Source of the DNA: Nafulsella turpanensis ZLM-10
Lineage (GTDB): Bacteria; Bacteroidota; Bacteroidia; Cytophagales; Cyclobacteriaceae
Direction of reading: 5' to 3'
DNA length: 64,000 nucleotides
NCBI RefSeq assembly: GCF_000346615.1
Contig: NZ_ANNU01000010.1
Span: forward strand, 124,001 to 188,000
Positions 3,083-43,319 of the stretch are shown here, in pieces. Both the position numbers and the translations under genes were made by a program. The first letter of the stretch is position 1. Each line of letters begins with the position of its first letter. Under the pieces are notes generated by a model. It was not told the origin of the DNA and made no database searches. It was given only the letters and a program-made list of their open reading frames with translations.

Positions 3083-3211
3083 TTGCACTTAAAGGATGAT
3101 TTTTTTAATCGTCGCAACATAGATTTATCGAATGTTCGATTATATTAATAGCAGTTTTCAGGTACCCCAACATATTTGGAAGCCTTATCTCTCACTTTAA
3201 CCATTAATAAA

Positions 3212-3436: not shown

Positions 3437-3453
3437 CCTTAAAAACTGTAAAC

Positions 3454-3654: not shown

Positions 3655-3656
3655 CG

Positions 3657-5163: not shown

Positions 5164-5224
5164 CCCGCAAATTATTTCGCGGTGCGAATTTTGATTCGAT
5201 TCCGGTTAGGACAATCAAAAAACT

Positions 5225-7194: not shown

Positions 7195-7470
7195 GATTTC
7201 TAATTCCTCTTGGTAGTAATACTTCTTTATTTATAAAAGCAAACTTTTATAATTTTGTTTAAGGTGAATATTGAATGATTATCACCTGATAATAAGTCAG
7301 TTAACCAAATATTCAAAATGATTATGTCAGGTATATAGAGCTATTTCTTCACATTTCACTCAAATTGTTGAATTACTAATATAAACTATATTGGCCCCTT
7401 ACAGAAGGTATCGGTGTGCAAACAATTACCCATTAACAAGGTTTTGCAACTATTACTAATAAATTTCAAA

Positions 7471-9294: not shown

Positions 9295-9602
9295 AATCCA
9301 TATTACAGTTATGTGAATCTCTACAGGTAATCGGTACTAATTCCGGCATAAAGGAACATAAACATCCTTTGTTTATATAAAAAAGCAATATTTCAGCATA
9401 TCACCTAAAGAAGAAGATAAGCAATTCTTACTTTCTCCTGACTTTCTGTTTTTACATCCTTTATTTTCGACTGCTGCCAGAAATCAATCTATGAATACAA
9501 GGCTTCTTTCACTACGGCAGGTTTAAAACTTAAACCGGAACTAAGGTTTTCATTTTATTGCTCCTGCTAATGTATTGGGTGGTTTTCAGTAACTGTTCTA
9601 CA
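9295..9602. other. Spacer between convergent genes
   Basis: About 308 bases between the 3' ends of the GH15 gene and the antiporter gene. No supported gene; several short imperfect hairpins but no clear terminator. Confidence 0.4.
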
Positions 9603-11663
9603 TTAAACATATTGAGAGATTTCAGATAAATGTTTTGACTCCTCCACTTTAGGATATACCACAATATAACTATAGGCTGCTAAGTGTTTATTTAATTTAA
9701 TTGGCACCATATCAAGTACGGAGTTATAGGAGAGACTGCCCTTCCTTGGCGATACCACCACTATTATATCCTGCTTTTTAAAATCCTTAGCCAACACCAG
9801 AAAATCTTCTATTTCATTAAAATCCTTGTGCTTCACCTCATTACTCAGTTTATTTTCCCTGATAAAATTATTGATATTGTCATAAGATGTTTTAGAAGAG
9901 TAAATATAAATATCAACTGTTAGGGCGCCTGCCAATCGCATGATTTTTTCCAACCAGCTATGAAAGCCAAACTCCTTCTCTGAATGAGGAGGACAAATTA
10001 ATCTCACATTCTGGTGTAGATTTAAGGCCATGGAGGGGTTATAAACCAGCACCTCCTGGTGGGTGGAATTAAGCAGCGTATGGATAAAGCCCCCAAAAAA
10101 CCTGTCAGAAAAGGCAACTTTTGATGAGCTTCCTAATATTATATCTGTAGCCGCTACCTCTTTCGAAACCCGCCGGATTCCGTCACATACATTCTGATCG
10201 ATGGTTGTAATTACTTCTATTTGCTGGTCGGAAGAGGAAGCATGCGCAATAGCCTTCTCCAGAATTTTTCTGGATTCTGACAGCTTCACCTGTGCTTTTT
10301 CATCATCCTGCACCACTGCAAGACCATAAATGGGAGTATCATAAACCGGATTCTTAATGGTAAGGGCAAAATCTACCAGCCTTTCCATCGTATCAGGGTT
10401 AGAAATAGGTACCAGAATTTTTTCCTCATGATTTTGCGAGGTAGTAGGATCCTTCCTGTCCTCTACAAGAGCCATGGACTTTCCGGCACTTTCTGTGACA
10501 AAGGAAGCAACCAGGCAGGTAATGAGAATAAGAATTACAGTTCCATTCAGGATATTTTCATCTATAATGCCGATTCTGTAACCTACCAGGATTACTGCAA
10601 GTGTGGCTGCGGCATGGGCACTGCTGAGCCCGAAAATTACGTTGCGCTGGGCTTTGCTATATTTCATAAACAAGGCAATAAGGTAAGAGGCAATCCATTT
10701 ACCGAAAAGCGAAACAATTGTTAGGGCTGCCGCAACAATAAGTGCACTAGGACCCTGCATTAACACATCAATATTTACCAGCATTCCTACACTGATCAGA
10801 AAGAAAGGAATGAACAGAGAGTTTCCAACAAACTCAATCCGGTTCATGAGAGGTGAGGTATGGGGAATAAACTTATTAAGCACCAGGCCGGCCGCAAAAG
10901 CCCCTAATATTGGTTCCAGACCAGCAATTTCAGCGATAAACGCACAGAAAAAAACAATGGTAAGAACATATATATAGTGGGCATGCTTTTCATCTTCCCA
11001 ATGCCTGAAAAACCATCCGGAGACAGCCGGAATAACAAGCACCACAAAGGCAACAAAAGCAAAAAAGGAAATACCTAACCTTATCCAAAGCTCGCTTGTC
11101 AACCCGCCTTCCACAGCACCTGTTACTACTGCCAGAATTATTAGAACTGCAGTATCAGTTAAAATAGTGCCCCCCACGGTAATAGCAACTGCTTCATTCT
11201 TTGAAACTCCCAATCGGCTGACAATTGGATAAGTTACTAAAGTATGAGTGGCAAACATACTTGCAGTGAGCAAGCTGGTCATAAATCCATAACCAAGTAA
11301 ATACATGCACACAGGTAACCCAATCGCCAAAGGAAAAATGAAGGTCAGAAAACCAAAGATCACACTCTTATGCTTATTCTTGCTAAATTCTTTTAAGTCC
11401 AGCTCCAGGCCTGCAATAAACATAATATAAAGCAAGCCAATTGTTGAGAATAAATCTACTGCCGCATTCTGCTCTATCATGTTCAGGCCGTGAGGTCCAA
11501 TGATAATTCCGGATACAATTAACCCGATTATTCCTGGAATCCGAATCTTGCGCAACAGTATAGGTGCCAAAAGAATTATGAGAAGGATAATGCAAAAAAT
11601 TAGTACCGAATTCTCGAACGGCCTATGAAATTCATGATTTAATTGTTCCAGAAATTTATCCAT
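9603..11663 (-). CDS. CPA2-type cation:proton antiporter with Usp-like tail
   Basis: A 686-residue protein. Residues ~15-385 form about 12 membrane segments of the Na+/H+ exchanger (CPA2, Kef) family, with LVSGIIIGPHGL, LFATHTLVTYP-like and GAFAAGLVLNKF signatures. Residues ~415-665 are a cytosolic double Usp-like domain (EEKILVPISNPDTMERLVDFAL; later 'TDIILGSSSKVAFSDRFFGG'). It likely exchanges K+ or Na+ for H+ in the inner membrane, under control of a nucleotide-binding tail. KTN/TrkA-N domains of true KefB/C are absent. Part of a window rich in monovalent-cation transporters. Confidence 0.85.
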   Translation of the reverse strand: MDKFLEQLNHEFHRPFENSVLIFCIILLIILLAPILLRKIRIPGIIGLIVSGIIIGPHGLNMIEQNAAVDLFSTIGLLYIMFIAGLELDLKEFSKNKHKSVIFGFLTFIFPLAIGLPVCMYLLGYGFMTSLLTASMFATHTLVTYPIVSRLGVSKNEAVAITVGGTILTDTAVLIILAVVTGAVEGGLTSELWIRLGISFFAFVAFVVLVIPAVSGWFFRHWEDEKHAHYIYVLTIVFFCAFIAEIAGLEPILGAFAAGLVLNKFIPHTSPLMNRIEFVGNSLFIPFFLISVGMLVNIDVLMQGPSALIVAAALTIVSLFGKWIASYLIALFMKYSKAQRNVIFGLSSAHAAATLAVILVGYRIGIIDENILNGTVILILITCLVASFVTESAGKSMALVEDRKDPTTSQNHEEKILVPISNPDTMERLVDFALTIKNPVYDTPIYGLAVVQDDEKAQVKLSESRKILEKAIAHASSSDQQIEVITTIDQNVCDGIRRVSKEVAATDIILGSSSKVAFSDRFFGGFIHTLLNSTHQEVLVYNPSMALNLHQNVRLICPPHSEKEFGFHSWLEKIMRLAGALTVDIYIYSSKTSYDNINNFIRENKLSNEVKHKDFNEIEDFLVLAKDFKKQDIIVVVSPRKGSLSYNSVLDMVPIKLNKHLAAYSYIVVYPKVEESKHLSEISQYV

Positions 11664-12722: not shown

Positions 12723-12911
12723 TTAACCACCCTTCAAAATCCCAAACTCTTCATAAATCAATTTTAACTCCCCCGGATATAGCAGCTGCCTCCGGCCGGT
12801 GTTCAGCCCCTTCACTTTTTTCAGCTTTTTCCGCAGGGTTTCCCGGCTGATGCCCAGCTTTGCGGCCAGCTCAGATTTACCCATGAATTTGAATGTTGCT
12901 ACTTTATCCAC
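12723..12911 (-). CDS. Small Fis-type helix-turn-helix protein
   Basis: A 62-residue protein, mostly one helix-turn-helix: SELAAKLGISRETLRKKLKK, followed by a basic linker and LLYPGELKLIYEEFGIL. The layout (HTH, linker, a 'LxPxExxxIxExFG' closing helix) is repeated in the 91-residue protein at the other end of the structural operon (23407-23682). Likely a repressor or structural-operon regulator: it is divergent from that operon with about 220 bases between starts. Confidence 0.6.
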   Translation of the reverse strand: MDKVATFKFMGKSELAAKLGISRETLRKKLKKVKGLNTGRRQLLYPGELKLIYEEFGILKGG

Positions 12912-13130
12912 CTTCTAAAAATAAGGCTTTTTTTATCAACAGACACTTCAAATAAAACAAAAGAGCCCAGCTTCGCCAGCTATTTCCAGCACTTCAATCC
13001 AAGGTCCCCAAACCACCGCTGAAATGCTCTCTTTTCCTTAATAATTCTCCAAAAAACCCCCTTTAACAAGCCTCCTTGAATGTTTTTTCAGGATTGCTCA
13101 CATTTGATTCGGGCTTTTAAAACCGATAGT

Positions 13131-13592
13131 ATGATCAAATGGATTGCAGGTGGTATAGCTGCCTTTTTTGCCGGCAGATATTTGTTGAGACTGAACAATG
13201 CTTCCAACTCTATTAATACCCGGACTTCTGTGAAGGTCCATAAGGTAAGCCTTTCCGGTATAGAATTTAAAGCAAGGGTCACCTTACAAAATCCTAATCC
13301 TATCGCACTAAAGATCCAGTATCCTTTTGTAAACATCTTGTATAAAGGATCCTCCTTAGGCACTTCCGCATTGAAGAATGAGGTGATCAGTATTCCTCAA
13401 TATGGAGAACAGTCATTTGACCTGAACATACAGTCAGCTGGCTGGCTCACTTTAATCCAGTCCTTGGGAACGAGCCTGATCAACAGGATCAGAAGCGGTG
13501 AAAAGACTGATCTGGAAATTATCGCTGCTACCTCTACCAGGGTGAATAGTATTCCTTACCTGAAAGAAGACCTTATAAAACTCAGTTTCTGA
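13131..13592 (+). CDS. LEA14/WHy-like protein with N-terminal membrane anchor
   Basis: A 153-residue protein. Residues 2-20 (IKWIAGGIAAFFAGRYLL) form a membrane anchor. Residues ~35-150 are a WHy/LEA14-like Ig fold (VKVHKVSLSGIEFKARVTLQNPNPI, IQYPFVNILYKGSSLGTS), a family seen in stress proteins and bacterial envelope proteins. First gene of an 18-gene plus-strand operon. The start at 13131 gives the anchor at the very N-terminus; an upstream Met at 13080 is less likely. The stop TGA overlaps the next ATG (TGATG). In this setting it may be a structural or envelope component of a particle. Confidence 0.65.
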   Translation: MIKWIAGGIAAFFAGRYLLRLNNASNSINTRTSVKVHKVSLSGIEFKARVTLQNPNPIALKIQYPFVNILYKGSSLGTSALKNEVISIPQYGEQSFDLNIQSAGWLTLIQSLGTSLINRIRSGEKTDLEIIAATSTRVNSIPYLKEDLIKLSF

Positions 13593-14623
13593 TGGAAACA
13601 TTACGACACAGACGTATAAGACCAGGTCGGGAGTATGATAAGCTTTTTCCTGTCAGCGTAAAGCAGGATACGGTAGTAAAAGGAAAGGGTAAAGCAAAAC
13701 TCCACCATACCATCAACCTGATTAAGTCATTAGTCGAAGAGACTAAAAATGACACCAGGGTAATTGCGCCTATATTAAAAGGAAAAGACCTGGAAGAGAC
13801 CTGTCGGAATATATGGAATTTTGTTTACCAGCATATTCAGTACAAAAAAGATGAAGCGGGTATTGAACAGGTACGAAGACCTTCCAGAACATGGGCAGAT
13901 CGCTACCAGGGAGTAGATTGTGACTGTTATACTGTCTTTATCTCCAGTATCCTTCGCATTTTAAATATCCCGCACAAGGTCAGGATCACGAAGTATGGAG
14001 GTAAAAGCCACTTCCAGCATATTTACCCTATCGTACCAAAAGATGGAAATAACCACCAGGAGCTAAGCAACTCTACTTCTGGCTATATCACCATTGATTG
14101 CGTGGCAGATTACCCGAACTACGAAGTGCCCTTTTCAGAATGCCGGGATTTCACCATGGGAGATAATCTCTTATCAGGTGAGATTAATGGTATAAGGTTC
14201 GGTGAAGTGAGTGGTGTGGATTCGGCAGATCTACTATCGGATGACTTAGGTGTTCTTACTCTAAAACCTGAAGCTGTAATAAAGCAGCGGTTAACGCTTA
14301 GACAGATCGTTACAAAGCCCAGGACAAATTCCGGCACTCAATACGAGCCTAAGGTATCCATCTACCAGTACAGTAATGAGGCCCGAACTGCCCCGGAACC
14401 TCCAGAAAAGCCCGCTGCCAGTAAGGTGTCAACGATATCTGAGGCAAGATTAGCATCACAGAATATAGCTCCGTTAAGACTGGCTCCTGAAGAACAATAT
14501 GTCCAAACCGTTCTGCCAGCTAATGCTCAATGGAACAAACCGCTTCACATAGCAGGCCTTGCCCTGGCTATTGCAGGAGTTGGGTATGGTACTTATAAAA
14601 TAGTAAAAGAATTAACCAATTAA
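13592..14623 (+). CDS. Transglutaminase-fold cysteine protease-like protein with C-terminal membrane anchor
   Basis: A 343-residue protein. The transglutaminase/papain-like core has C110 (DCDCYT, followed by the expected SILRILNIPHKV), H143 (HFQHIYP) and D169 (TIDCVADYP), consistent with a catalytic triad. C110 is favoured over C112 because of its spacing to the conserved Arg. Residues ~230-315 are a polar, Pro-rich linker. Residues ~318-340 (GLALAIAGVGYGTYKIV) form a membrane anchor. Such folds occur in viral and Bacteroidota prophage proteins as maturation proteases or cross-linkers. A maturation protease acting on the shared motif is one speculative role. Confidence 0.6.
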   Translation: METLRHRRIRPGREYDKLFPVSVKQDTVVKGKGKAKLHHTINLIKSLVEETKNDTRVIAPILKGKDLEETCRNIWNFVYQHIQYKKDEAGIEQVRRPSRTWADRYQGVDCDCYTVFISSILRILNIPHKVRITKYGGKSHFQHIYPIVPKDGNNHQELSNSTSGYITIDCVADYPNYEVPFSECRDFTMGDNLLSGEINGIRFGEVSGVDSADLLSDDLGVLTLKPEAVIKQRLTLRQIVTKPRTNSGTQYEPKVSIYQYSNEARTAPEPPEKPAASKVSTISEARLASQNIAPLRLAPEEQYVQTVLPANAQWNKPLHIAGLALAIAGVGYGTYKIVKELTN

Positions 14624-14627
14624 AATC

Positions 14628-16127
14628 ATGGAGTTACACCGATTAGATGGCATGGATGCCGCCGGACTCGATTCAGTTGATATTGCAGAGGTTGAATATG
14701 ATTATACAGATGGATTGAATGGCGCACAGATTGAAGCATTGGAAGCCTTGGGTTATGTACAGAATCCTGAAATAGTCTATGAAATTCAGGATGAAGATGG
14801 CAATGTAATCATGTATGCCGATGCAGAGGAAAACCTGTATATGGTAGATGGCTTGGGTGAATTAGGCTTCCTCAAAAAGATTGGCAAAGGTCTTAAGAAT
14901 GCCGCCAAATTTGTAGGAAAGAAAGTGCTAAAGCCGGTTGCCAAAGGTATTTCTACAGCAGCTAAGTTCACAGGAAAGAAAATCCTGAAACCGGTTATCT
15001 CCACGGTCAATCGCTACGCCAACCCTGCTACCATTCTGCTTAGGAACGGTTTTCTGGCTTCCATGAAACTAAACCTTTTTAAAGTAGCGGAAAGGTTACG
15101 GTTCGGATACCTCAGCGATGCCGAAGCAAGAAAAAGGGGGGTAAACATGTCCGAATTTGGGAAGCTGAAAAGAGCTATCGAGAAGGCAAATCAAATTTAT
15201 GAATTAGCCGGAGGCAAGAAGCAAAATCTGAAAAATGCTATCCTGAAAGGAAAAGGCAATAAAGATAAAGCAGTGCCTTTAAGCGGACTGGAGGGTTTAG
15301 GTGAAGTGACGGAATATGCTGACGAATTCGAGCGCTTTATTCTGGAATCTGATCCCGATCTGGTAGAGGAGTACATGGATGAAGAGATAGAAGGATTAGG
15401 TCTAGTAGCATCTACTGCTATTGCAGCTGCTTCTGCTGCCGTTGGTTCCGTAGCAGCTTTACTCAGCAAGATCACCGGTGTATTTGATAAAGCAAGAAAT
15501 GCCAAAGACCAGGTTCAAAGCCTGATAAGTACTGCTAAACCACCATCTGCACCAGCTCCCTCTCTACCAAGGATTACGCAGCCGGTCACACAAAGCTATA
15601 CTGCCCCAAAAGTAGCTCAAACTGCTGTCAGGCAAAGCTACACTACTCCAAGGACCAGTAGTAGCATCCTGCAGGTACGACCATCGACCGTAACGCGAAC
15701 AACTATTCCGCGCACTACTGCCTTGCAAACTACTGTTCCGAAAACAACAGTACCGCAACCGCTCCAAAGGTTTACGAATGATCCAACTATCACATTACCA
15801 CCCCAAAAGCCTTCCACAGTAGAAGAGCTAAGCTGGTTCCAAAAGAATAAAACCAGTCTGATAGTCGGCGCAGGGGTCGCAGTAGCTGCAGGCGGAATCC
15901 TGTATGCGGTAAAGCAGTCAAAAAGCAAGAAAAGCAAACCAGTCAGCGGCATCCCTTCCAATAAGAAAGTAAAGGGCAAACCCAAAACAGGGACAGCAAA
16001 GCAAGAAAGCAACTCAGACAGTCCTTCAGCAAATACAATAGCAAAAAACGCAAAGGCCTCAAAGAGTTCGAGCAAAAAAAAGCAGCCTAGAAAGCAGGAC
16101 AAGCTTGCTCCGAAAGTATTACTGTAG
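14628..16127 (+). CDS. Large membrane-active, Pro/Thr-rich structural protein candidate
   Basis: 499 residues, no recognised family. The N-terminus is acidic (residues 1-72). It carries GL-rich motifs at 6-15 (LDGMDAAGLD), 73-80 (VDGLGELG), 218-226 (LSGLEGLGE) and 254-259. Residues 81-123 form a cationic amphipathic stretch with two copies of KFxGKKxLKPV (94-104 and 113-123), like membrane-active peptides of viral penetration proteins. Residues ~258-280 are an Ala-rich hydrophobic segment, ~300-400 are Pro/Thr-rich, ~408-428 are a membrane segment, and the last 70 residues are Lys/Ser-rich. Probably a minor capsid or membrane-penetration protein; inference only. Confidence 0.5.
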   Translation: MELHRLDGMDAAGLDSVDIAEVEYDYTDGLNGAQIEALEALGYVQNPEIVYEIQDEDGNVIMYADAEENLYMVDGLGELGFLKKIGKGLKNAAKFVGKKVLKPVAKGISTAAKFTGKKILKPVISTVNRYANPATILLRNGFLASMKLNLFKVAERLRFGYLSDAEARKRGVNMSEFGKLKRAIEKANQIYELAGGKKQNLKNAILKGKGNKDKAVPLSGLEGLGEVTEYADEFERFILESDPDLVEEYMDEEIEGLGLVASTAIAAASAAVGSVAALLSKITGVFDKARNAKDQVQSLISTAKPPSAPAPSLPRITQPVTQSYTAPKVAQTAVRQSYTTPRTSSSILQVRPSTVTRTTIPRTTALQTTVPKTTVPQPLQRFTNDPTITLPPQKPSTVEELSWFQKNKTSLIVGAGVAVAAGGILYAVKQSKSKKSKPVSGIPSNKKVKGKPKTGTAKQESNSDSPSANTIAKNAKASKSSSKKKQPRKQDKLAPKVLL

Positions 16128-16158
16128 AAAATTTTAATGGTCAACAAATATTAGTCTA

Positions 16159-16767
16159 ATGGAAAAAAGTGAAATGGTAAAAGAAAGCCTTATCGAAACC
16201 GGAAAGAAACTGGGATCTGGCGTAGTGGGCATGCTGATCGGTTCAGCAGTAGGCAGGCCAAGCCTGCTCGTAGGAATAGTCACCCTCTTTGGAGCAGCCT
16301 GGTACAAATACGACTGGCTTTCTGCTGCCGGTGTAGGCATGGTCGCCTCCAATGGTTTTATTTCAAAAACAGAAGAACAGGAGATGCAGGGAATGGATGG
16401 CCTTCAGCAGGAAATTGCAGGCGCTAAGAACAGAGCATTGAGCTCCTTGAAAGCACTCGGTAAAAAGGTATACCTGGACAAGTTCTCCCCTTCCCTGGCA
16501 GAGAAAATGGATTTAGGAGAACTGGCAGCGATAGAACGACCCATGGTTTTTGTAGGCAGCGAAATGGTAGACAGGGGCAGCTTTGATACTTCGGAGGTGG
16601 ATGAAATTATCCGCCAGTTAGAACAGGGAAACCCTGAAAATATAACAGGCATGAATGTGCAGGGATTTGGCAGCCCTGATATCAGCGAGTTACAGGGCTA
16701 TCTGGGCAGCACCGATATTACTGCCCTGGCAGGTGTCGATGAACTGGAGCTAAACGCCATCGCCTAA
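16159..16767 (+). CDS. Membrane protein of the structural operon
   Basis: A 202-residue protein. Residues ~17-65 are hydrophobic with two or three segments (GVVGMLIGSAVGRPSLLVGI, VTLFGAAWYKYDWLSAAGVG). The soluble remainder is acidic and carries motifs of the shared type: QGMDGLQQE (77-85) and, in the C-terminal 35 residues, NVQGFGSPDISELQGYLG and ALAGVDELELNAIA. No database family recognised. It follows the large 499-residue protein and precedes the candidate capsid genes. Confidence 0.5.
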   Translation: MEKSEMVKESLIETGKKLGSGVVGMLIGSAVGRPSLLVGIVTLFGAAWYKYDWLSAAGVGMVASNGFISKTEEQEMQGMDGLQQEIAGAKNRALSSLKALGKKVYLDKFSPSLAEKMDLGELAAIERPMVFVGSEMVDRGSFDTSEVDEIIRQLEQGNPENITGMNVQGFGSPDISELQGYLGSTDITALAGVDELELNAIA

Positions 16768-16810
16768 GGAAAATTCCACTAAAAAAATTTCAACCAAAAT
16801 CATAACTAAA

Positions 16811-17440
16811 ATGAACATGCGAAAAGGTTCAAGAGAACAATTCCTGGAAATTGTCAATGCCCATACGGCCCTCCGAGATGCCGGTAAAAAGTACGATCCT
16901 GCCATGGTGAAGATGGCACTGGACATCAAGGAAGGCAGGCTGCAATTAGCGGATGCTGCTTACTATTCCATTAAGAGGTCCGGAGGAAAAGCGAATATCA
17001 ATATGTTCGAAACCCAGGATGCCAAAGAGATCGGTGTAACCAATGTTACCCAGACGAAGCTTCCTAAAGACAGACTTTTCCTTTGCAACCGCATCATCTT
17101 ACTGGCCGGTATGCTGGAAGGCGAAGTGCCCACCAATGATTCGGAATGGAAGAAAGCGATTAAAATGGCCAACTTTGATTCGATCAAAAAGATCGCCGGT
17201 CTGCAAAATGGTGTATTTACCCTGATGGCCAATAAGAAGCTGATTATTGACGAAAGACCCATGCAGGAGTTTATTACCGATAATAACTCTACCATCAATC
17301 TGGGCACCTACTACCTCGAAAATCCACGGTTTATCCGGGACGACGAGGAATTTGAATTTACCATTGAGCTTGGTGAGGATGCCCCGGATAAATCCATGAT
17401 CAAGGTAGTGTTGGGCGGTACTTCTACGATACCGGCGTAA
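16811..17440 (+). CDS. Candidate major capsid-type beta-barrel protein
   Basis: 209 residues. The N-terminal ~55 residues are helical; the rest is beta-rich: LPKDRLFLCNRIILLAG, NGVFTLMANKKLIIDER, LENPRFIRDDEEFEFTIELG and the closing strand MIKVVLGGT. The order of strands with a 'NPxxIxxxEEFxFxIEL...IKVVLGG' ending resembles single jelly-roll capsid proteins of tailless prokaryotic viruses. There is no signal peptide or membrane anchor, unusual in this operon and fitting a soluble capsid subunit. I rank it as the best major-capsid candidate, by fold-like pattern only; structure prediction would test this. Confidence 0.4.
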   Translation: MNMRKGSREQFLEIVNAHTALRDAGKKYDPAMVKMALDIKEGRLQLADAAYYSIKRSGGKANINMFETQDAKEIGVTNVTQTKLPKDRLFLCNRIILLAGMLEGEVPTNDSEWKKAIKMANFDSIKKIAGLQNGVFTLMANKKLIIDERPMQEFITDNNSTINLGTYYLENPRFIRDDEEFEFTIELGEDAPDKSMIKVVLGGTSTIPA

Positions 17441-17479
17441 CAGTTGAACTATTTCGGAACAACCATTAAGTAAGTACGG

Positions 17480-17872
17480 ATGCAAAAGGAAAGCAGAGAA
17501 ATCAGGAAGGTGTTTACATTTTCTGTAAACGAGGCTAATAAGTCTTACAGTCCCCTTAACTGGGAGCTGAATAAGAAAACCATCGCTGTGAGGGCTATCC
17601 AGCTTTCTTCCGATTATCCTGATAAACTGTATTACCGTGGTGCCCAACGAATAGAAATCGGCGGTGATGAGATTTTTCCGGAAGGATTTGACAGTAAGTT
17701 CCTGATGTCTTCTGTAAGTGTAGGCCCGCATGAAAGGTTCTTTCAGTTAGGAGATGTCCTTCCGGGAGATCTATCCGTGAAGCTCCGCTATGAGGATAAA
17801 GATCATCAGCGGGCACCTATTGAAAGTGGCTACCAGGTGAAGGTGATCCTTTTAATAGAAGAAAGGATTTAA
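17480..17872 (+). CDS. Small beta-rich protein (candidate capsid/penton, member 1)
   Basis: 130 residues, nearly all predicted beta strand: IRKVFTFSVNE, KTIAVRAIQLSSDYP, LYYRGAQRIEIGGDEIFPEG, KFLMSSVSVGP, GDLSVKLRYED and a final strand YQVKVILLIEE. That final strand closely matches the one in the 98-residue protein two genes on (YRIKVWLLIEEE). A jelly-roll or similar sandwich is likely, fitting a capsid, penton or spike subunit. No signal peptide. Confidence 0.5.
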   Translation: MQKESREIRKVFTFSVNEANKSYSPLNWELNKKTIAVRAIQLSSDYPDKLYYRGAQRIEIGGDEIFPEGFDSKFLMSSVSVGPHERFFQLGDVLPGDLSVKLRYEDKDHQRAPIESGYQVKVILLIEERI

Positions 17873-17873
17873 G

Positions 17874-18476
17874 ATGTTCCGGAAAATAGAAAAGCGGCAG
17901 ATAACAGCTCTGGGAGGTGACAAGCAGGAAGAATACCAGTCACTTTTACTTAAAAGAAAACTGCTTGCTGTGGAGATTGAGATTCATGCAAAAGGACAAT
18001 ACGAGACTTTTGCTCAAAAGCTTCCCTTCAATGCCACGAAAGTGGTGGGCATCGTTGTTTGCAGCACCGTCAGCGATATGAGCGAACCTACTGTCTTTGG
18101 CAGGTGCTACTTTGGAACAGGACCGGGCAAACAATCCTCTGAGAGCTTTATCAAGTCTTTAGATTCAGAGCTTATCCTTTCTGAACGAACTGTTATACGG
18201 ATTCAGCCCAATGAAAAAGAGCATCATAAGGACGATGAGGATGAGGACGATGATGATCATGACCACGATGACTGGACCTATTATGCTCAACCTAAGCGTC
18301 TGGGTAATCCGGTCATCAAAATGGGTGGAAAAGCTGTAGAATCCAGAAATCCGGCAACTACTTCGATACTTGATGATGCAACCGGTATCCGGGAAGATTA
18401 CTACATCTGGAAGAGCCAGGAAGATAACCATAGCGAGATTGAAATAGAAATCATTCAACAGGTACTTCAGCCATGA
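17874..18476 (+). CDS. Small beta-rich protein with acidic His/Asp loop (member 2)
   Basis: 200 residues, beta-rich (KLLAVEIEIHAKGQYETFA, KVVGIVVCSTVSD, ..FGRCYFGTG) with a C-terminal strand EIEIEIIQQV. A highly acidic, His-containing loop (EHHKDDEDEDDDDHDHDDW) lies at roughly residues 113-134 and could bind divalent metal such as Ca2+. It starts 2 bases after the preceding stop and overlaps the next gene by 4. Similar overall design to its neighbours suggests a duplicated capsid or spike family. Confidence 0.45.
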   Translation: MFRKIEKRQITALGGDKQEEYQSLLLKRKLLAVEIEIHAKGQYETFAQKLPFNATKVVGIVVCSTVSDMSEPTVFGRCYFGTGPGKQSSESFIKSLDSELILSERTVIRIQPNEKEHHKDDEDEDDDDHDHDDWTYYAQPKRLGNPVIKMGGKAVESRNPATTSILDDATGIREDYYIWKSQEDNHSEIEIEIIQQVLQP

Positions 18477-18769
18477 AAACAGGAGAAATCGCATTATTTG
18501 AGAAGAAGGGCCTCTTTTTTAAGGCTGATGTATACGACAGTCAGCATCAGGAGAACCAGGAAGAAACCAACCTTCTGTCAAAAATAGATTTCTCAGAAGG
18601 TTTTGACTTTCCTGTTAACCTGAACATGGAGGTAGTGGATGTGGAGGGAAACACCGGATACATCACAGGCGCTTATAAAGATGCCGGGAATGTAAGGGAG
18701 TTTCCTTACCGCATCAAAGTATGGCTGCTGATAGAGGAAGAGCCGGTGCCTTTAAAGGATAGACCATGA
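18473..18769 (+). CDS. Small beta-rich protein (member 3)
   Basis: 98 residues: MKTGEIALFEKKGLFFKADVYD, then FSEGFDFPVNLNMEVVDVEGNTGYITGAYKD, closing with YRIKVWLLIEEEPVP. The last strand parallels the 130-residue protein two genes upstream. It overlaps both neighbours by 4 bases (ATGA). Too short for a full double jelly-roll; a single small sandwich is likely. Probably a structural subunit or tower/spike protein. Confidence 0.45.
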   Translation: MKTGEIALFEKKGLFFKADVYDSQHQENQEETNLLSKIDFSEGFDFPVNLNMEVVDVEGNTGYITGAYKDAGNVREFPYRIKVWLLIEEEPVPLKDRP

Positions 18770-19077
18770 GCGAAGAATTTATTCTCCGGTATGCCGAACA
18801 GCGAGTGAAGGAAAGAGGCTATGACAAATTTCTGATGCGCTACCATGACCTGCTCATTCAGGGTGAAGTAACGAAAGAAATTAATGCCTTCAATGAAATC
18901 TATTTTCTTATCTCGGCAGATGAAGGAATTTCCATCCAATCAGACTATGGCGAATATGATTACGGCAACTCCAGTTTATCTGAAAATGTACATGAGCATG
19001 CCGACCAGATCCGGATTACCAATTACACTTCCTCAACAAGACGAGCACAATTCATCCAGGTGATTTTTCAACAGTAG
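18766..19077 (+). CDS. Small beta-rich protein (member 4)
   Basis: 103 residues: helical start (FILRYAEQRVKERGYDKFLMRYHDLLI), then strands (EINAFNEIYFLISADEGISI, DQIRITNYTSS, AQFIQVIFQQ). The closing strand again ends in a short aliphatic/Gln pattern, as in the 200-residue member. Last of four consecutive small beta-rich genes; overlaps the previous gene by 4 bases. Confidence 0.45.
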   Translation: MSEEFILRYAEQRVKERGYDKFLMRYHDLLIQGEVTKEINAFNEIYFLISADEGISIQSDYGEYDYGNSSLSENVHEHADQIRITNYTSSTRRAQFIQVIFQQ

Positions 19078-19082
19078 TAAAA

Positions 19083-19952
19083 ATGGAAGAACGACAGGAA
19101 CATAGAAAAAGAAATCCGGGGGCGGTTCGCCTGACAGATGAACAATATGAGGAAATGGAATTGCTGGGTCTGTCAAATGAAAGTGCATACGTCAATTACA
19201 AGCTCAATGGCAATGGCCATCTGAAAGTCTCCCGTAGTGATTCGCGTGAAAATGAAAATCAGCATCCGCAGCTTTTAGCCAGTCAGCTGGCCCTTCAAAA
19301 AGCGGCTTTTGAAAATCAGCAGCTCAGGGAAAAACTGGAAGAGCTGAGCCGGAGCAGCGAAGAAAGCCTGAATGGAGTGAGTATTCGGGTCAATAAAATG
19401 CTGGAGGAAGAGCTGCTGCGAAGGGACTTTGAGGCACTGAAAAAAGAAAGGGATCATCTTAACAGAGAAATCGAAAAGCTGGAAAAGAAGCTGGAAAAAG
19501 CCGAAGACCAGCTGGAGGAGAAATCACAGGAGATTGAGGAACTGGCAAAGAAATTCGGCCTGATAGAGCTAGGCAAAACGCTGCTGCCCGGCGCCATCAG
19601 CGGATTGGCAAGAAGGTATCCCCGGGAGCTGAAAAGCCTGGCAGCCTCTCTGGGAGAGCTTGCCGGAGATGAGGGAAAAATGCTGGAAACGTCGGGCTTA
19701 GATGAGGAGCAGCGGAATTTATTAAATATCGCTGAATACTTCAGAAGCCTGTTTGACGATAAACAGTTTGAGCAGCTGATTGAGATAGTCTCCCTGATGG
19801 GAACGGCGGTAAAAGAGGACCTGCAGCTTATGCAGAAAATAATGTATTACCTCAACCAATTGTCCAGGATAAGGAAAGCATCCAGAAATCATAAAGAGGT
19901 ACAGAGTGAACCTAAAGAACAGTTAAAAGACCAAGAAAATGCAGGAATTTAA
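19083..19952 (+). CDS. Long coiled-coil protein
   Basis: 289 residues. After a short N-terminus (LTDEQYEEMELLGLSNES), residues ~60-160 form a strong coiled coil (QLREKLEELSRSSEESL; EIEKLEKKLEKAEDQLEEKS). The C-terminal part is helical and contains KKFGLIELGKTLLPG. No signal peptide. Scaffold- or rod-like role is possible: tailless viruses often encode a coiled-coil assembly or tape-like protein. The next gene overlaps its end by 14 bases. Confidence 0.5.
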   Translation: MEERQEHRKRNPGAVRLTDEQYEEMELLGLSNESAYVNYKLNGNGHLKVSRSDSRENENQHPQLLASQLALQKAAFENQQLREKLEELSRSSEESLNGVSIRVNKMLEEELLRRDFEALKKERDHLNREIEKLEKKLEKAEDQLEEKSQEIEELAKKFGLIELGKTLLPGAISGLARRYPRELKSLAASLGELAGDEGKMLETSGLDEEQRNLLNIAEYFRSLFDDKQFEQLIEIVSLMGTAVKEDLQLMQKIMYYLNQLSRIRKASRNHKEVQSEPKEQLKDQENAGI

Positions 19953-20124
19953 TTTACCCATTCGGTTTAAAGCCAAGGATACTGAGGAAGCGAAGGCCGT
20001 ACAGAAAGCCCTTGAAAATATGATCATCAGCGTAAGCGGTGAGGGAGTCATCAAAATGAATAAGTTATTCAACTCCGACCCCCTGGTCAGGAATCTGGTC
20101 AAAATAAAGTTAGGCATCCGTTAA
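19939..20124 (+). CDS. Small hypothetical protein of the structural operon
   Basis: 61 residues (MQEFNLPIRFKAKDTEEAKAV.., ending LVKIKLGIR). The 14-base overlap with the preceding gene and the immediate start of the next gene (one base after its stop) support it as real. Probably a small alpha/beta domain; function unknown. Confidence 0.45.
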   Translation: MQEFNLPIRFKAKDTEEAKAVQKALENMIISVSGEGVIKMNKLFNSDPLVRNLVKIKLGIR

Positions 20125-20125
20125 C

Positions 20126-20539
20126 ATGATTCCGGCTATGATGGCATATAAAAGTTTACCCAAGGTAAATGTGAGCAGCCAGATAGTGGCAGCCATTCTG
20201 GCTACAGCCGCTGGTGCAGGCACCTTTATCGGAATCCGCTATATGGTGAAAAATCTGAAGCAGGGACTGCGGGAAAAGAATGCCTTGTATGAAGGGAACC
20301 CTGCCGCCTATGCCACGCAGCTGAAGATGGCCTTTGAGAATGATACCTGGTTTGGATGGGGAACGGATGAAGAAGTTGTATTCAGAACGTTAGAAGAAAT
20401 TCCCGGCAAAGCCATGTTTTCAAAAGTGCAGAATGCGTACCGCGATTTGTATGGAAATAACCTGGCTGCAGACCTCAAAGATGAATTATCGACAGAGGAT
20501 TATATTCAGGCAATGCAGATTTTAAACTCAAAATCGTAA
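20126..20539 (+). CDS. Membrane-anchored protein with an annexin-like repeat
   Basis: 137 residues. Residues 20-40 (IVAAILATAAGAGTFIGIRY) are a membrane segment. Residues ~62-134 look like one annexin repeat: GTDEEVVFRTLEEIP (G79-T-D-E), then KVQNAYRDLYGNNLAADLKDELS, which parallels the annexin 'GTDE..L..R....Q....AY...YG.dL..dLk.elsg' pattern. Annexin repeats bind membranes with Ca2+; small annexin-like repeats have been described in bacteria. In the operon it may attach a particle or machinery to a lipid bilayer. Confidence 0.55.
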   Translation: MIPAMMAYKSLPKVNVSSQIVAAILATAAGAGTFIGIRYMVKNLKQGLREKNALYEGNPAAYATQLKMAFENDTWFGWGTDEEVVFRTLEEIPGKAMFSKVQNAYRDLYGNNLAADLKDELSTEDYIQAMQILNSKS

Positions 20540-20546
20540 GAGGAAT

Positions 20547-21614
20547 ATGAAAAATCCCCACAATAGCAGACAAAAATGGAAGGGTACCGGAAATATTCCC
20601 TCAAAAGCAGTGAGCACTACTTCTAAAAAGCCTGCTCCAGACAGCAATACTAAGTCCTCCATTAGTAGAAAGATAAATACACAGCAATATATTCTTTACG
20701 GGTTAGGTACAGGCATTTTGTTGGGTGGTGGATACCTGGTTTATAATTTACTGCAGGACATCAATGCATCTAAAAGAAGTACGGTTCAACCGGTGGTGAA
20801 TCAGGAGGTAAAACAGATTATCCAGGTCAACAAAGAAAACTTCCCTCTGAAAAACGGCTCAAAAGGAAACCTGGTGGCCATGCTTCAAAAGGCATTAATA
20901 GCCTTGGGAGGACAAGCTGCAAGCCATATTAGAAGCACCAGCATGAAGCCCAACGGTGAAGTAGATGGTGTATTTGGCCGGGGTACTGAAAATGCATTGG
21001 AAGCTGCAGGATATGCCAAAATAGTCTTTGAAAGCGATTTCTCGAAAATTGTAGGAAAAAATGCAGCAGGCTCGGCTCAAACGAGTGTAAGTGTTGCAAG
21101 TTCTACGAACTATAAGGCGGTTGCTGACGAAATTCTTGCTGCCGCCAACCGAAGAAATTTATTTGCCGTACTGGCAGGTCTTCAAAAAATTCAGAATGTC
21201 AGCCAGTATTCTTCCGTGAGTGCTTATTTCATAAATAAAAGGATATTCGGAACAAGAGTTACTTCTTTAGTGAATGCTTTACTAAGCGTAGCCTTTGCCA
21301 ATAATGAACCGGCCAAGGTAAAGATAAGAGCAGAGTTCAGCAGGATGGGCCTGAAACAGAATGCCGGAGGCGTATGGTCCTTATCTGGCTTTGGAAGTTT
21401 ACAAGGCTATGAGGCAGATGCAAAGCTTTTAAAAATGGCTATTACCAGGAGGCCTACGCTCCTGAAGAATGGGAATGGCCAGGTGATCCACCCGCTACTG
21501 AATCCCGATACCCTGATTGGCTATGTAACCAACGAGCACAAGGGAGTGCTTCAGATCTTAACCAAAACCGGAGAAAGCGTTTATGCCCCTTCTCAAAATT
21601 TAAAACTGATTTAA
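20547..21614 (+). CDS. Membrane-anchored peptidoglycan-binding protein
   Basis: 355 residues. Polar Ser/Lys-rich N-terminus; membrane segment at residues ~48-68 (YILYGLGTGILLGGGYLVY). A PG_binding_1-like domain follows at ~98-160 (LKNGSKGNLVAMLQKAL, then EVDGVFGRGTENALEAAG). Residues ~185-260 form a helical region (ADEILAAANRRNLFAVLAGL...) that recalls the annexin-like repeat next door. The shared-type motif LSGFGSLQG is at 279-287. Probably binds the cell wall and could bring cell-entry or lysis proteins to peptidoglycan. Confidence 0.6.
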   Translation: MKNPHNSRQKWKGTGNIPSKAVSTTSKKPAPDSNTKSSISRKINTQQYILYGLGTGILLGGGYLVYNLLQDINASKRSTVQPVVNQEVKQIIQVNKENFPLKNGSKGNLVAMLQKALIALGGQAASHIRSTSMKPNGEVDGVFGRGTENALEAAGYAKIVFESDFSKIVGKNAAGSAQTSVSVASSTNYKAVADEILAAANRRNLFAVLAGLQKIQNVSQYSSVSAYFINKRIFGTRVTSLVNALLSVAFANNEPAKVKIRAEFSRMGLKQNAGGVWSLSGFGSLQGYEADAKLLKMAITRRPTLLKNGNGQVIHPLLNPDTLIGYVTNEHKGVLQILTKTGESVYAPSQNLKLI

Positions 21615-21615
21615 A

Positions 21616-22020
21616 ATGACACAATTCAAAAAATGGTGGGGGAACGCTATCCATAAAAGCAAACCCTTTTTCAGAAAAGCCCTGAGCTTTGCCAAGGTCT
21701 GGCGGGAATTCTCCTCCATTCTGTTGGGATTACTTCTATGGTTCAACAGCCCTATCCTCTTACGGATGCTGGATCCTACAGCAGGTATTTATGATGCAGG
21801 TGTATTCCAGATATACCTCTTCGCAGTAATCGGCTTATACATCCTTCATGGAGTGGTGAGAATCCTGATGAAGCTGATCTGGCCTACCACCGATCATTAC
21901 CTGGATAATCAATTTGCTCACGACTTCCAACTCATTGCACCATGGAAAAAATTAAAATTATCTGTCTCTATCTTTTTTGCTTTGCTATTTGCTTTAGTGC
22001 TGCTGGCCAGGGTGCTGTAA
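21616..22020 (+). CDS. Three-helix membrane protein, holin-like position
   Basis: 134 residues with about three membrane segments (SSILLGLLLWFNSPILL; IYLFAVIGLYILHGVV; SVSIFFALLFALVLLARVL at the C-terminus). The gene's last 79 bases overlap, out of frame, the start of the CHAP hydrolase gene, so the same DNA codes for this protein's third membrane helix and the hydrolase's signal peptide. Overlapping holin/endolysin arrangement is common in phages; 'holin' is inferred from position and topology only. Confidence 0.5.
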   Translation: MTQFKKWWGNAIHKSKPFFRKALSFAKVWREFSSILLGLLLWFNSPILLRMLDPTAGIYDAGVFQIYLFAVIGLYILHGVVRILMKLIWPTTDHYLDNQFAHDFQLIAPWKKLKLSVSIFFALLFALVLLARVL

Positions 22021-22484
22021 GCAAAAGGGAGCAGGTGAGGCAGATCTACAGTAGCCAGATAGGCATTGTGGAGCAAGGGGGAGCAAACCGGGGCAAAGAA
22101 GTAAATGAATATTTAACTTCTACAGGCTTAGGTCCCGGCTATCCCTGGTGTGCAGCCTTTGTAAGCTGGTGCTATCAGCAAGCGCAGGTGGATGCTCCTC
22201 ATAGTGCATGGGTACCTGCCTATTTTACAATAAGCAGGATAGTTTACCTAAGAGGCAAGTTCCAACGCAAAGAGCCTGAAGCAGGAGATGTATTCAGCAT
22301 CTGGTATTCCCACTTAGGCAGGCCTGCCCATATAGGCTTTGTAGATAGGTGGGGTGAGAATTGGATAATTACAGTGGAGGGGAATACCAATGAAGGAGGA
22401 TCCAGAGAGGGCATAGGTGTTTTTAAAAAGCGCAGGCTCAGAAGACAGGTATATGCAGTCAGTGATTTTATAGGAAGAAAATAA
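21942..22484 (+). CDS. Exported CHAP-domain peptidoglycan hydrolase
   Basis: 180 residues. N-terminal signal peptide (KIICLYLFCFAICFSAAG). CHAP/NlpC-P60-like core with C70 (YPWCAAFVSWC), H130 (GRPAHIGFVDRW) and E146/N148 (TVEGNTN), fitting the Cys-His-Glu/Asn active site. It would cut peptide stems or crosslinks in the periplasm, either for host lysis or for wall penetration on entry. Starts inside the preceding membrane-protein gene; its stop overlaps the next start. Confidence 0.75.
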   Translation: MEKIKIICLYLFCFAICFSAAGQGAVSKREQVRQIYSSQIGIVEQGGANRGKEVNEYLTSTGLGPGYPWCAAFVSWCYQQAQVDAPHSAWVPAYFTISRIVYLRGKFQRKEPEAGDVFSIWYSHLGRPAHIGFVDRWGENWIITVEGNTNEGGSREGIGVFKKRRLRRQVYAVSDFIGRK

Positions 22485-23167
22485 TGCTGAGCAAGACCCG
22501 GAAAATATTAAAATCAAAAGGCTTTAAGATCTACGAAAAGCCTTATCAGCTCAACATTGTCGCCTACCGTAGCAGGCACTTAAGAAGCAATGCCTTTGAT
22601 GATGAGATTCATGTCTTCTACACGAACGATGAAGGCAAGTGGATCTACCATATTTTCAAGGGTACCACGGACCCTGGGCAATTCTGGCTGGATAATCCAA
22701 TGAATCCCCAGGGCACGGCTTTCCTGAAGAAAGGCCAGTATGAAAATGCCTATGCCATCGGATACCACCAGGGACTTTATGAAGCCTTGGTGCAGGTAAA
22801 AGAGGTGACGGTAATCAGAAACTATGACAGAAGGGGCTTATTCAACCTGCTTGAAACCGGATTGGAAGATAAAGGGATGTTTGGCATTAATATTCACAGG
22901 GCCAGTCAGACCGGAACTACCAAAACGATTGATAAATACTCTGCAGGCTGTATCGTATTTGCCAATATCGAGGACTATCAGCAATTCATGCAGCTGGCTA
23001 AAATACACCGACAGAAGCATGGGAATAGCTTTACGCTCACTTTGGTAGATTTCCGGGATGAAAGAAAACAGACGCTCAAAAAGATAGCTGCCGGAACCCT
23101 GATGGCTTCTTCCATGCTGCTCTTTGCCAATGTTTACTACAAACAGAAAGCTTATGAAACTCTCTAA
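22484..23167 (+). CDS. YkuD-like (L,D-transpeptidase-fold) protein with C-terminal membrane anchor
   Basis: 227 residues. H138 (GINIHRAS) lies 15 residues before S153-A-G-C156, matching the H-x(13-17)-[ST]-x-G-C layout of YkuD L,D-transpeptidases, where the Cys is catalytic. C-terminal hydrophobic segment (~203-220: ASSMLLFANVYY) is a likely anchor. The N-terminal half is beta-rich with FKGTTDPGQFWLDNP. Together with the CHAP protein and the peptidoglycan-binding protein it forms a cell-wall-active trio. A host-like transpeptidase role versus a wall-opening role cannot be told apart from sequence. Confidence 0.6.
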   Translation: MLSKTRKILKSKGFKIYEKPYQLNIVAYRSRHLRSNAFDDEIHVFYTNDEGKWIYHIFKGTTDPGQFWLDNPMNPQGTAFLKKGQYENAYAIGYHQGLYEALVQVKEVTVIRNYDRRGLFNLLETGLEDKGMFGINIHRASQTGTTKTIDKYSAGCIVFANIEDYQQFMQLAKIHRQKHGNSFTLTLVDFRDERKQTLKKIAAGTLMASSMLLFANVYYKQKAYETL

Positions 23168-23405
23168 AAACTCGAAAAAAGCAGGCTTGGCCTTAATAGG
23201 CAGCTTAGCAGGCTTTCTGGCGGCAAAGCGATTAAAGACAGAAGAAACATACCCCTTTATCCTGATCGGAGGGTTCATCGGAAATTATATTGGAGAAGAA
23301 TATATTCCGGAGGAGTATCCTCCATTTTTAGGTAGCCGGCCCCAAACCATTCCTCTGGCTTATATAAATCGTTTTGGTCATTTAGTTTACCTTAAACACC
23401 ATTAA
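23154..23405 (+). CDS. Small membrane protein
   Basis: 83 residues, start at 23154 inside the end of the preceding gene (overlap 14 bases). Two hydrophobic segments (AGLALIGSLAGFLAAKRL; FILIGGFIGNYIGEEYIP), rich in Gly, as in many small membrane proteins of viruses with internal membranes. Ends in a basic/His tail. No family recognised. Confidence 0.5.
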   Translation: MKLSKNSKKAGLALIGSLAGFLAAKRLKTEETYPFILIGGFIGNYIGEEYIPEEYPPFLGSRPQTIPLAYINRFGHLVYLKHH

Positions 23406-23406
23406 T

Positions 23407-23682
23407 ATGTCAGCTCCAGTCTCCACTTCCTATTATGACCTGCTACATAATGGCAAACAAAAGCTCATGCCGGTCGATCTACATGACGATGAGGCAAGGG
23501 TAAAAGAAAAAGCGTACTATAAGCACGAGATGGCCGCTCTATACAATGTCTGCACCAAAACTTTCTCAGCCTGGATCCACCTCTATTTTGAAGAACTCCA
23601 ACGGTTCGGGTATAAGAAGCATACCAAGCTCCTTCGACCGGAGGTGGTGAGGTTTTTGTTTGAGAAGCTGGGGGAGCCTTAA
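23407..23682 (+). CDS. Helix-turn-helix protein closing the structural operon
   Basis: 91 residues. Residues ~40-60 (EMAALYNVCTKTFSAWIHLY) form a helix-turn-helix, followed by a basic linker and LLRPEVVRFLFEKLGEP. The same three-part design is in the 62-residue protein at 12723-12911 that precedes the operon on the other strand. Last gene of the operon: after it the strand switches to the IetAS cargo. Possible regulator. Confidence 0.55.
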   Translation: MSAPVSTSYYDLLHNGKQKLMPVDLHDDEARVKEKAYYKHEMAALYNVCTKTFSAWIHLYFEELQRFGYKKHTKLLRPEVVRFLFEKLGEP

Positions 23683-26253: not shown

Positions 26254-26269
26254 ATACTATTTAATGCAT

Positions 26270-28447: not shown

Positions 28448-28448
28448 G

Positions 28449-43229: not shown

Positions 43230-43319
43230 TAATTCTTGAAGGACTATATATTTAAATGGGTTTTCTTTTTAAGCCAATAACTAACGGTCAGATTAACAGG
43301 AACTTCTTATACTTCCCTT

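Follow-up and report, generated by a model that had tools for sequence, protein, structure and literature searches.

The operon of 18 genes (g01–g18) at positions 13131-23682 of the DNA analysed here, a stretch of 64,000 nucleotides from the Nafulsella turpanensis ZLM-10 genome (hereafter the window), very probably encodes the morphogenesis and lysis functions of a temperate, tailless and probably membrane-containing icosahedral DNA virus that is integrated in a Bacteroidota chromosome. The virus is known here from its genes alone, from which we infer the formation of particles, the membrane and the activity of this copy. A preliminary description of the operon had proposed a virus-like or virus-derived particle module, and this proposal is now supported by jelly-roll models, by homologues in mobile elements and by homologues in Salisaeta icosahedral phage 1 (SSIP-1). 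Together with its relatives, the element is a new lineage of tailless single-jelly-roll virus, which is common in parts of Bacteroidota.

Predicted structures of the capsid candidates

The products of g05 and g06 were predicted to be single jelly rolls, with one barrel each (209 and 130 amino acids, aa) in separate chains. The AlphaFold model of g05, built with 41 sequences, had a mean predicted local distance difference test (pLDDT) of 86.8 and a predicted template modelling score of 0.82, and showed a strand barrel behind two helices, while the single jelly roll of g06 reached a pLDDT of 93.9. When the g05 model was compared with solved structures by VIA-align, virus shell proteins filled the first six rows. 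The top match was a virion chain of Sulfolobus polyhedral virus 1 (SPV1; Z 9.0, 149 residues with a root-mean-square deviation of 3.5), and the next ones, with Z about 7, were PBCV-1, EhV-201, satellite panicum mosaic virus and Singapore grouper iridovirus. After those, PHM enzymes, HCIV-1 (6.3), SH1 (6.2) and P23-77 VP17 (6.0) were found with Z about 6. Among the best 50 rows, 24 were virus shell or scaffold proteins and 23 were PHM entries, the others being two parts of phage tails and one plant protein. The g06 model also matched SPV1 best (Z 7.8), tied with PHM enzymes (7.6), the STIV turret and the KHP40 cement protein. Envelope and appendage proteins were among the matches as well, namely Ena fibres and BcsB for g05 (in the Foldseek search), and TasA and FlhE for g06.

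With Foldseek, the penton protein of FLiP was the first PDB match of g05 (E 4.8e-4, with poor TM-scores), and I1ZBH9 (211 aa) was the first match in BFVD (E 5.3e-5). The latter shares its length with SSIP-1 gp46 and gp35, so that an unconfirmed identity with one of them may be guessed from length; no mention of I1ZBH9 was found in the literature. Three further BFVD entries with a fold match to g05 or g06 (A0A141HS21, A0A141HS22 and A0A141HS23) have consecutive accessions and similar length. Fold similarity alone shows no function, and g05 is a capsid candidate because of its position, its conservation and its company in the operon. From the models, we infer that g05 and g06 form a single-jelly-roll shell.

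Relationship to SSIP-1

The host of SSIP-1 is Salisaeta sp., a Bacteroidota-related genus. Two genes of the element are similar to SSIP-1 genes annotated as structural. In a search of the ORFs (open reading frames) of two phages only, the hidden Markov model (HMM) of the g02 family matched gp34 with an E-value of 1.9e-16; the hhalign probability of this pair was 97.9%, and the window protein alone gave 6.8e-7 by single-sequence phmmer. The second is the ATPase gene at 46766-48406, which has homologues in four related genomes or contigs (G020, G056, G672 and G059 in our numbering). The PHROG_6891 profile scored 2.6e-79 with SSIP-1 gp40, 2.8e-13 with the window ATPase, for which the next best family gave 0.0046, and 2.5e-18 with the ATPase of G056. 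The window ATPase obtained 51.1 bits for the gp40 family vs 17.5 for the next one (hhalign 95.7%), and it also had weak matches (3e-5) to Bacteroides phage p00 and records like it.

Moreover, the endolysin gp31 of SSIP-1 is similar to the endolysins of three related elements, its genome has 43.8 kb with no tail or terminase gene annotated, and its genes gp44-gp48 encode a hydrophobic protein, then two proteins of about 210 aa and further proteins, in an order like that of g04-g09 (by eye). A 2019 review ascribes two types of capsid protein to SSIP-1 and says of its genome that, compared with GenBank entries, it 'hardly shares any similarity' (PMC6356626). In another source, SSIP-1 is listed only as 'single jelly roll?' (PMC6260650). 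On the other hand, SSIP-1 differs from the elements in that neither the capsid candidates nor the remaining families of the module had detectable sequence similarity to the SSIP-1 proteins compared, and in that its gp43 (2319 aa) combines methyltransferase and ParB-like domains, where the elements encode a separate methyltransferase and an SNF2 helicase. No HMM match of g05 was obtained among the SSIP-1 ORFs, and no direct sequence relation of g05 to the SSIP-1 capsid candidates was found among the 27 of 57 SSIP-1 proteins compared. A G013 gene similar to the SSIP-1 DNA invertase (3.8e-51) was taken as a common mobile gene and was not counted.

By tblastn against 50,697 phage records, g02 had no match at E 0.01, and gp40 and gp34 retrieved only SSIP-1 itself and one weak match (3e-4, for gp34); scans of viral contigs for relatives of gp46 and gp34 returned SSIP-1 alone. 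Because two genes match and the capsid candidates and other families are without similarity, the elements are, as far as sequence comparison tells, related to SSIP-1 through two genes and the general plan, and do not form one close family with it.

Conservation and distribution

The same module was found in integrated elements and in viral contigs, in the same gene order in other Bacteroidota genomes, and none of its homologues belongs to a known secretion machine. The gene g05 is single-copy in this genome and is carried by 5 of the 58 relatives examined. All 18 genes are present in the same order in G020, and two module copies each were found in G013 (93% identical over 12.6 kb) and in G056 (about 80%). 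In genomes drawn by the search tool, with the window's own genome left out, relatives detected by the g05 profile had a patchy distribution: 40 of 394 genomes from the class carried them, some in multiple copies (five at most), as did 36 of 294 from the family. Including the own genome there were 41 class matches, of which four were weaker than 1e-8 and two more about 3e-9.

A scan of the GTDB collection revealed 176 stretches encoding relatives, of which 80 were kept; they come from Fulvivirga, Aquimarina, Marivirga, Crocinitomix, Chitinophagales and others, and several are from named cultures (Fulvivirga, Aquimarina, Marivirga). The set of 84 loci compared below (80 GTDB loci, 2 more and 2 viral-contig loci) includes several from one genome, so the loci are not independent, and the family counts are lower bounds because contig ends truncate several of them. 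Collinearity of the genes holds for 81 of the 84, the remaining three differing by one extra match each, and this recurrence of the same families places the operon beyond chance. The most diverged loci, L022 and L023, retain five and four recognisable families. Four viral contigs were found via the ATPase family; three of them also carry the capsid gene, and no module gene appeared in the part of the fourth that was covered. A first scan of viral contigs with g05 alone gave no match, and a later scan with g03 gave no new viral contig. Likewise, there was no tblastn match of g05 in 50,697 phage and 72,556 plasmid records and no megablast match of the whole operon. No account of these elements was found in the literature, as judged by titles and the openings of abstracts, with subscription papers mostly outside reach.

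Integration and mobility of the relatives

The sequences of the relatives show integration at tRNA genes by a tyrosine recombinase. Contig C1 of G672 contains, at 1512745-1714941, four tandem proviruses of 49.0, 46.5, 54.5 and 52.1 kb, each with the module, the ATPase gene and an integrase; they are diverged, with about 74-84% identity in aligned stretches, and the tandem rests on an assembled contig of a metagenome-assembled genome (MAG). A tRNA-Ser gene adjoins the last element, and four other sites repeat 14-17 bp of the 3' end of this gene. The 14-mer has exactly five copies in 220 kb of G672, where 0.002 would be expected at random, and therefore the four elements are bracketed. A substring common to the four junctions had been sought in guessed intervals to no effect, and the repeats emerged once the tRNA-Ser end served as the query. 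Beside tRNA-Cys in G056 lies an integrase gene (Phage_integrase, 6.9e-8); no repeat of at least 11 bp with this tRNA was found in the left flank searched of the first element there.

Furthermore, the IMG/VR contig G059 (38.8 kb) carries the module and an exact terminal direct repeat of 127 bp, which is the usual mark of a circular assembly. No terminal repeats were found in viral contigs G060, G703, G704 and G705, and the last three continue into integrase and host-like genes (by eye).

Comparison with other virus lineages

SPV1 (Portogloboviridae) provides the best solved fold match of both g05 and g06 (6oj0 chains A and Z, for which the virion protein per chain is unnamed). It has a single-jelly-roll shell, an internal lipid layer and no recognised replication initiator, and it differs in its archaeal host, its 20 kb genome and a presumably nonlytic life (PMC8459092). 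A further difference is that g05 has no sequence similarity to solved structures. The single-jelly-roll shell proteins of Helvetiavirae (P23-77, SH1, HCIV-1) are also in the g05 list; these viruses have two single-jelly-roll capsid proteins, and the operon would likewise encode at least two such proteins next to each other (predicted for two). An FtsK/HerA-type packaging ATPase, a mark of Varidnaviria, is known for that lineage, whereas the ATPase of the element is RadA- and SSIP-1-gp40-like; its other genes were covered by no search aimed at FtsK/HerA.

FLiP (Finnlakeviridae) is likewise tailless and lipid-containing and infects Bacteroidota, and its penton protein was the Foldseek match mentioned above. 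It differs by a single-stranded DNA genome of 9 kb and a major capsid protein of 311 aa vs the single barrel of 209 aa here, and no sequence match to the 18 module families was better than E 0.04. Thus FLiP, which the preliminary description had offered as a comparison, is no close sequence relative, and SSIP-1 serves better. FLiP or another double-jelly-roll virus (Bamfordvirae) as the source of the module was rejected, with no sequence match and single barrels predicted for g05 and g06.

No terminase, portal or tail protein had been recognised in the operon at first sight, and this holds: for the 18 proteins, no terminase, portal, HK97 or sheath family was matched at E<=0.001, all families counted. 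None of the four appeared among the best 25 of 31 families of G059 (60 ORFs), or among the best 25 of 67 families of a 46-kb stretch of G672 (45 ORFs) that comprises most of its second element and the integrase of the first; both scans used ORFs of at least 75 aa that do not cross piece borders. In a control, 25 of the 52 annotated proteins of a P2-like phage, picked so that head and tail genes were represented, gave matches to families of terminase, portal, head and sheath. A G059 protein matches a baseplate-hub family (2.3e-24), probably through a lytic domain, and the regulator at 12723 has a weak terminase-small-subunit match (0.0079) among many helix-turn-helix families.

Composition of the operon

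The operon consists of 18 consecutive ORFs on the plus strand (13080..23682) with intergenic gaps of -79 to +43 bases, in agreement with the uninterrupted operon described before; homologues favour a start of g01 at 13131 over the ORF start at 13080. The interval 13131-23682 is too narrow as the full extent, as the element goes on both sides. A strict hydropathy scan (19-residue mean >=1.6) found membrane segments in five of the 18 proteins (g03, g04, g12, g14 and g15). With a lenient threshold (17-residue maximum >=1.25), 12 were positive, and 10 of them (g01, g02, g03, g04, g12, g13, g14, g15, g16 and g17) remained once two had been set aside: g05, because its segment falls within a barrel strand of the model, and g07, which is probably paralogous to the g06 barrel. 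Therefore, the statement that at least nine products have a membrane anchor or signal is true under the lenient scan only.

Family searches with the 18 proteins gave murein-related matches for g13, g15 and g16, LEA_2 for g01 and DUF4248 for g18; a transglutaminase-like family (g02) and annexin (g12) were matched below the cut-off, and the remaining matches were weak, such as coiled-coil noise. The three peptidoglycan-active or -binding proteins noticed earlier are thus g13, g15 and g16 by their family matches, the coiled-coil protein is g10, with weak matches to many coiled-coil families, and the small beta-rich proteins were borne out for the two that were modelled, g05 and g06. For g13, an endolysin family was matched at 1.1e-6 and PG_binding_1 below the cut-off at 0.003. 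No family match of g14 was obtained in PHROG and Pfam searches, and a holin family match was found in a related element. In some relatives g02 and g03 are fused (e.g., L010 839-2668 and L195 9482-11311). The g12 relative in L010 has a second, weaker annexin-like match in the same part. PHROG_3000, the family of g16, also occurs in crAss-like, Bacteroides and P2-like phages, and in Pseudoalteromonas phage ACA1 its gene lies between the tail tube and tail chaperone genes.

The wider element in the window

The element spans at least 2.7-48.4 kb of the window (Table 1). Its likely attachment (att) site is a tRNA-Arg gene. A 42-bp copy of the 5' half of this gene, 93% identical, lies outside the window at C10:208251-208292 of the same contig (84251-84292 in the window frame) and adjoins a tyrosine-recombinase-like gene with matches to the integrases of G056 and G672. 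Between the two att candidates, the repeat was not found a third time. As the two copies are about 82 kb apart, they delimit either one 82-kb island, composed of the provirus and cation-transport cargo, or two adjacent elements. In addition, a stretch of 19 bp identical to the anticodon region of tRNA-Arg was observed at 2245-2263, some 120 bp beyond the gene, which is perhaps the scar of another integration. An empty site was sought in G001, of the same genus, where a homologue of the fatty-acid hydroxylase (54%) has no other window flank gene nearby; none was read.

In the early module, the neighbours of the 428-aa protein are common to 2-14 of 28 clade-A loci. L115, L140 and L141 have unrelated genes at the place of the cargo between the early and structural modules. 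At 12090-12595, Fic/RhuM-type-like fragments with broken frames were seen by eye. Defence-like cargo at 23740-27277 and 35976-44366 includes a subtilase with an AAA ATPase, GmrSD, a PD-(D/E)XK nuclease and a type III restriction-like set made up of a helicase, a RhuM protein and an N6/N4 methyltransferase. From 48637 to 64000, genes for cation transporters, exchangers and EF-hand proteins are densely packed into an island that also has DinB and S24 genes (Pfam); it extends with transporter- or channel-like genes (by eye) to 84 kb in the window frame, up to the distal tRNA-Arg fragment.

Table 1. Genes of the module and other features of the element, in window coordinates; counts for g01–g18 are the loci, among the 84 compared, in which the family was recognised.
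Feature	Position	Strand	Prediction	Occurrence
g01	13131..13592	+	Membrane-anchored, LEA_2 domain (1.9e-5, just above cut-off)	76/84
g02	13592..14623	+	Transglutaminase-like (below Pfam cut-off), C-terminal hydrophobic anchor, SSIP-1 gp34 homologue	79/84
g03	14628..16127	+	Large, basic, hydrophobic segments; candidate internal or membrane virion protein	82/84
g04	16159..16767	+	Membrane protein (hydropathy), immediately upstream of capsid gene	81/84
g05	16811..17440	+	Predicted major capsid protein: single jelly roll, N-terminal helices	84/84 (circular in part: 82 of the 84 loci retrieved with g05 itself)
g06	17480..17872	+	Second predicted single jelly roll; candidate penton, second or minor capsid protein	82/84
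g07	17874..18476	+	Likely g06 paralogue (hhalign 85%, 35 columns)	77/84
g08	18473..18769	+	Possible g06 paralogue (hhalign 37%)	38/84
g09	18766..19077	+	Small, conserved	81/84
g10	19083..19952	+	Coiled coil; putative scaffold or internal role	79/84
g11	19939..20124	+	61 aa, conserved	77/84
g12	20126..20539	+	One hydrophobic segment, annexin-like repeat below Pfam cut-off (2.9e-4)	77/84
g13	20547..21614	+	Membrane-anchored, peptidoglycan-binding-like	72/84
g14	21616..22020	+	Multi-pass membrane (hydropathy), holin-like from position only	33/84
g15	21942..22484	+	CHAP endolysin (7.1e-8, above Pfam cut-off), N-terminal hydrophobic signal	30/84
g16	22484..23167	+	PHROG_3000 (2.7e-31), endolysin family (7e-14), C-terminal hydrophobic segment	67/84
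g17	23154..23405	+	Small membrane protein, start set from homologues	46/84
g18	23407..23682	+	Small, DUF4248 (2.2e-6, above cut-off)	53/84
tRNA-Arg (CCT)	2387..2459	-	Likely attachment site	Same tRNA beside module in L115, L116
Early module	2702..5809	+	Putative early/replication-like role; HTH_17-like protein, small proteins	
428-aa protein	3651-4937	+	HTH_36 below cut-off	14/28 clade-A loci
194-aa membrane protein	5225-5809	+	C2H2 zinc finger	
Probable cargo between early and structural modules	6340..11663		Universal stress protein, GH15 hydrolase, Na+/H+ antiporter-like (last by eye)	
Small helix-turn-helix protein	12723..12911	-	Likely regulator, facing operon; HTH_8 above cut-off	12/28 clade-A loci
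N6 DNA methyltransferase	27689..28447	+	DarB-like antirestriction family among PHROG matches	Homologues in G020, G013, G056
RadC-like protein	28374..29009	+		2/28 clade-A loci
SNF2-type helicase, 1462 aa	30799..35187	+	DarB-like antirestriction family among PHROG matches	Homologues in G020, G013, G056
ATPase	46766..48406	-	C-terminal RecA-like domain, SSIP-1 gp40 family (PHROG_6891); candidate packaging or virion ATPase	

A recurrent peptide

An LxGL(D/E)-like peptide recurs in non-homologous proteins of the elements. In 430 proteins common to 20 or more clade-A loci, its density per 1000 residues was 2.71 vs 0.55 in 189 unshared flank proteins, an enrichment of about fivefold; these are figures that apply to a pattern picked after inspecting the sequences and count homologous members repeatedly. 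In the unshared flank proteins, the peptide was near the level of shuffled sequences (25 against 23). It was present in 74 of 80 g02, 81 of 85 g03, 50 of 74 g13, 53 of 81 g04 and 35 of 81 g10 members, as well as in both SNF2 helicases and 4 of 5 ATPases examined, and was nearly absent in the lysis proteins (0 of 33 g14, 1 of 31 g15 and 0 of 73 g16 members). As a guess, the peptide may be a packaging or assembly tag.

Interpretation

We hypothesize that the provirus would be excised by the tyrosine recombinase of the element and that its replication would be helped by the left module at 2702-5809. The g05 protein would form the shell capsomers, and g06, with g07 and g08, the pentons or second shell proteins, while the small anchored proteins g01-g04, g12 and g13 would line an internal membrane. 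The RecA-like ATPase would drive or assist packaging. Progeny could be released by the putative holin and murein hydrolases encoded by g14-g16, and g02 and g13 could serve in wall penetration on entry, when the methyltransferase and the SNF2 helicase would shield the incoming DNA in a DarB-like manner.

Several observations weigh against a virus of this kind. The jelly roll is not exclusive to capsids, as the 23 rows of a single enzyme, PHM (Z about 6), among the best 50 for g05 illustrate, and for g06 the PHM score of 7.6 ties with that of SPV1, whose Z of 7.8 is in the range that the tool flags as possibly a mere common arrangement. At the sequence level, g05 has no significant match in PHROGs or solved structures, and its best hhalign probability with SSIP-1 was 1.3% (gp45, 27 of 57 SSIP-1 proteins compared). 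With an ATPase profile built from the elements, RadA reaches 40 bits and gp40 no more than 32.8 bits. In this genome, the candidate att copies are about 82 kb apart with a match of only 93% and the long cation-transport island between them. As regards distribution, the g05 profile was found in only 2 of 295 other genomes in a phylum-wide draw, and 3 of the 80 GTDB loci carry the names of non-Bacteroidota MAGs (Thalassovita, Rickettsiales and Saccharospirillaceae), which are probably binning errors. Finally, a tailed, contractile-type prophage adjoins the module on the IMG/VR contig G060 (L026), by eye.

Among the alternatives, a domesticated or defective descendant, i.e., a gene-transfer-agent-like particle, a killer particle or a satellite that no longer spreads as a virus here, is improbable. 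It would agree with the finding that no integrase was recognised within 2.7-48.4 kb, a candidate lying about 34 kb further on, with the broken look of the Fic-like fragments (by eye) and with the heavy defence cargo. However, all 18 ORFs of the module are open, and the tandem integration at tRNA sites, the recent duplications and the contig with a terminal repeat indicate that the relatives are active mobile elements. Less likely still is a trans-envelope machine for secretion, adhesion or a surface appendage, in which the jelly rolls would be extracellular subunits. The many anchored and murein-binding or -cleaving proteins and the matches of the models to Ena fibres, BcsB, TasA and FlhE could be read in this way; it was rejected in view of the mobile distribution, the integration at tRNA sites, the SSIP-1 homologues, the lysis genes and the viral contigs. 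A tailed phage with head and tail genes too diverged to be recognised can practically be dismissed: the tailed-phage family of g16, the baseplate-hub match in G059 and the weak terminase-small-subunit match of the regulator at 12723 hint at it, but no terminase, portal, HK97 or sheath was found in the operon or among the best families of G059 and the G672 stretch, with the P2-like control positive.

The elements would be a large temperate sister group of SSIP-1, which is the nearest isolated relative found and a phage without described family. It is rather probable, in our judgement, that they constitute a lineage, new at the level of a family or order, of membrane-containing DNA viruses that are temperate and tailless with a single-jelly-roll shell. 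It would be common in environmental Bacteroidota and overlooked because most of its genes match no family library, and SSIP-1 would be the first isolate from a large group. The shared LxGL(D/E) peptide could then be a particle-inclusion tag, also for the DarB-like helicase and the ATPase.

Significance

Through the elements, the orphan SSIP-1 is linked to a group of proviruses that the g05 profile detects in 40 of 394 other class genomes and that is represented by 176 GTDB stretches. Induction of cultured carriers thereby makes it possible to test capsid, membrane and packaging in a tailless lineage about which little is known. Moreover, the results suggest that a class of provirus common in Bacteroidota would escape prophage catalogues that rely on markers of tailed phages, and the new single-jelly-roll sequences contribute to the debate on the origin of such capsids.

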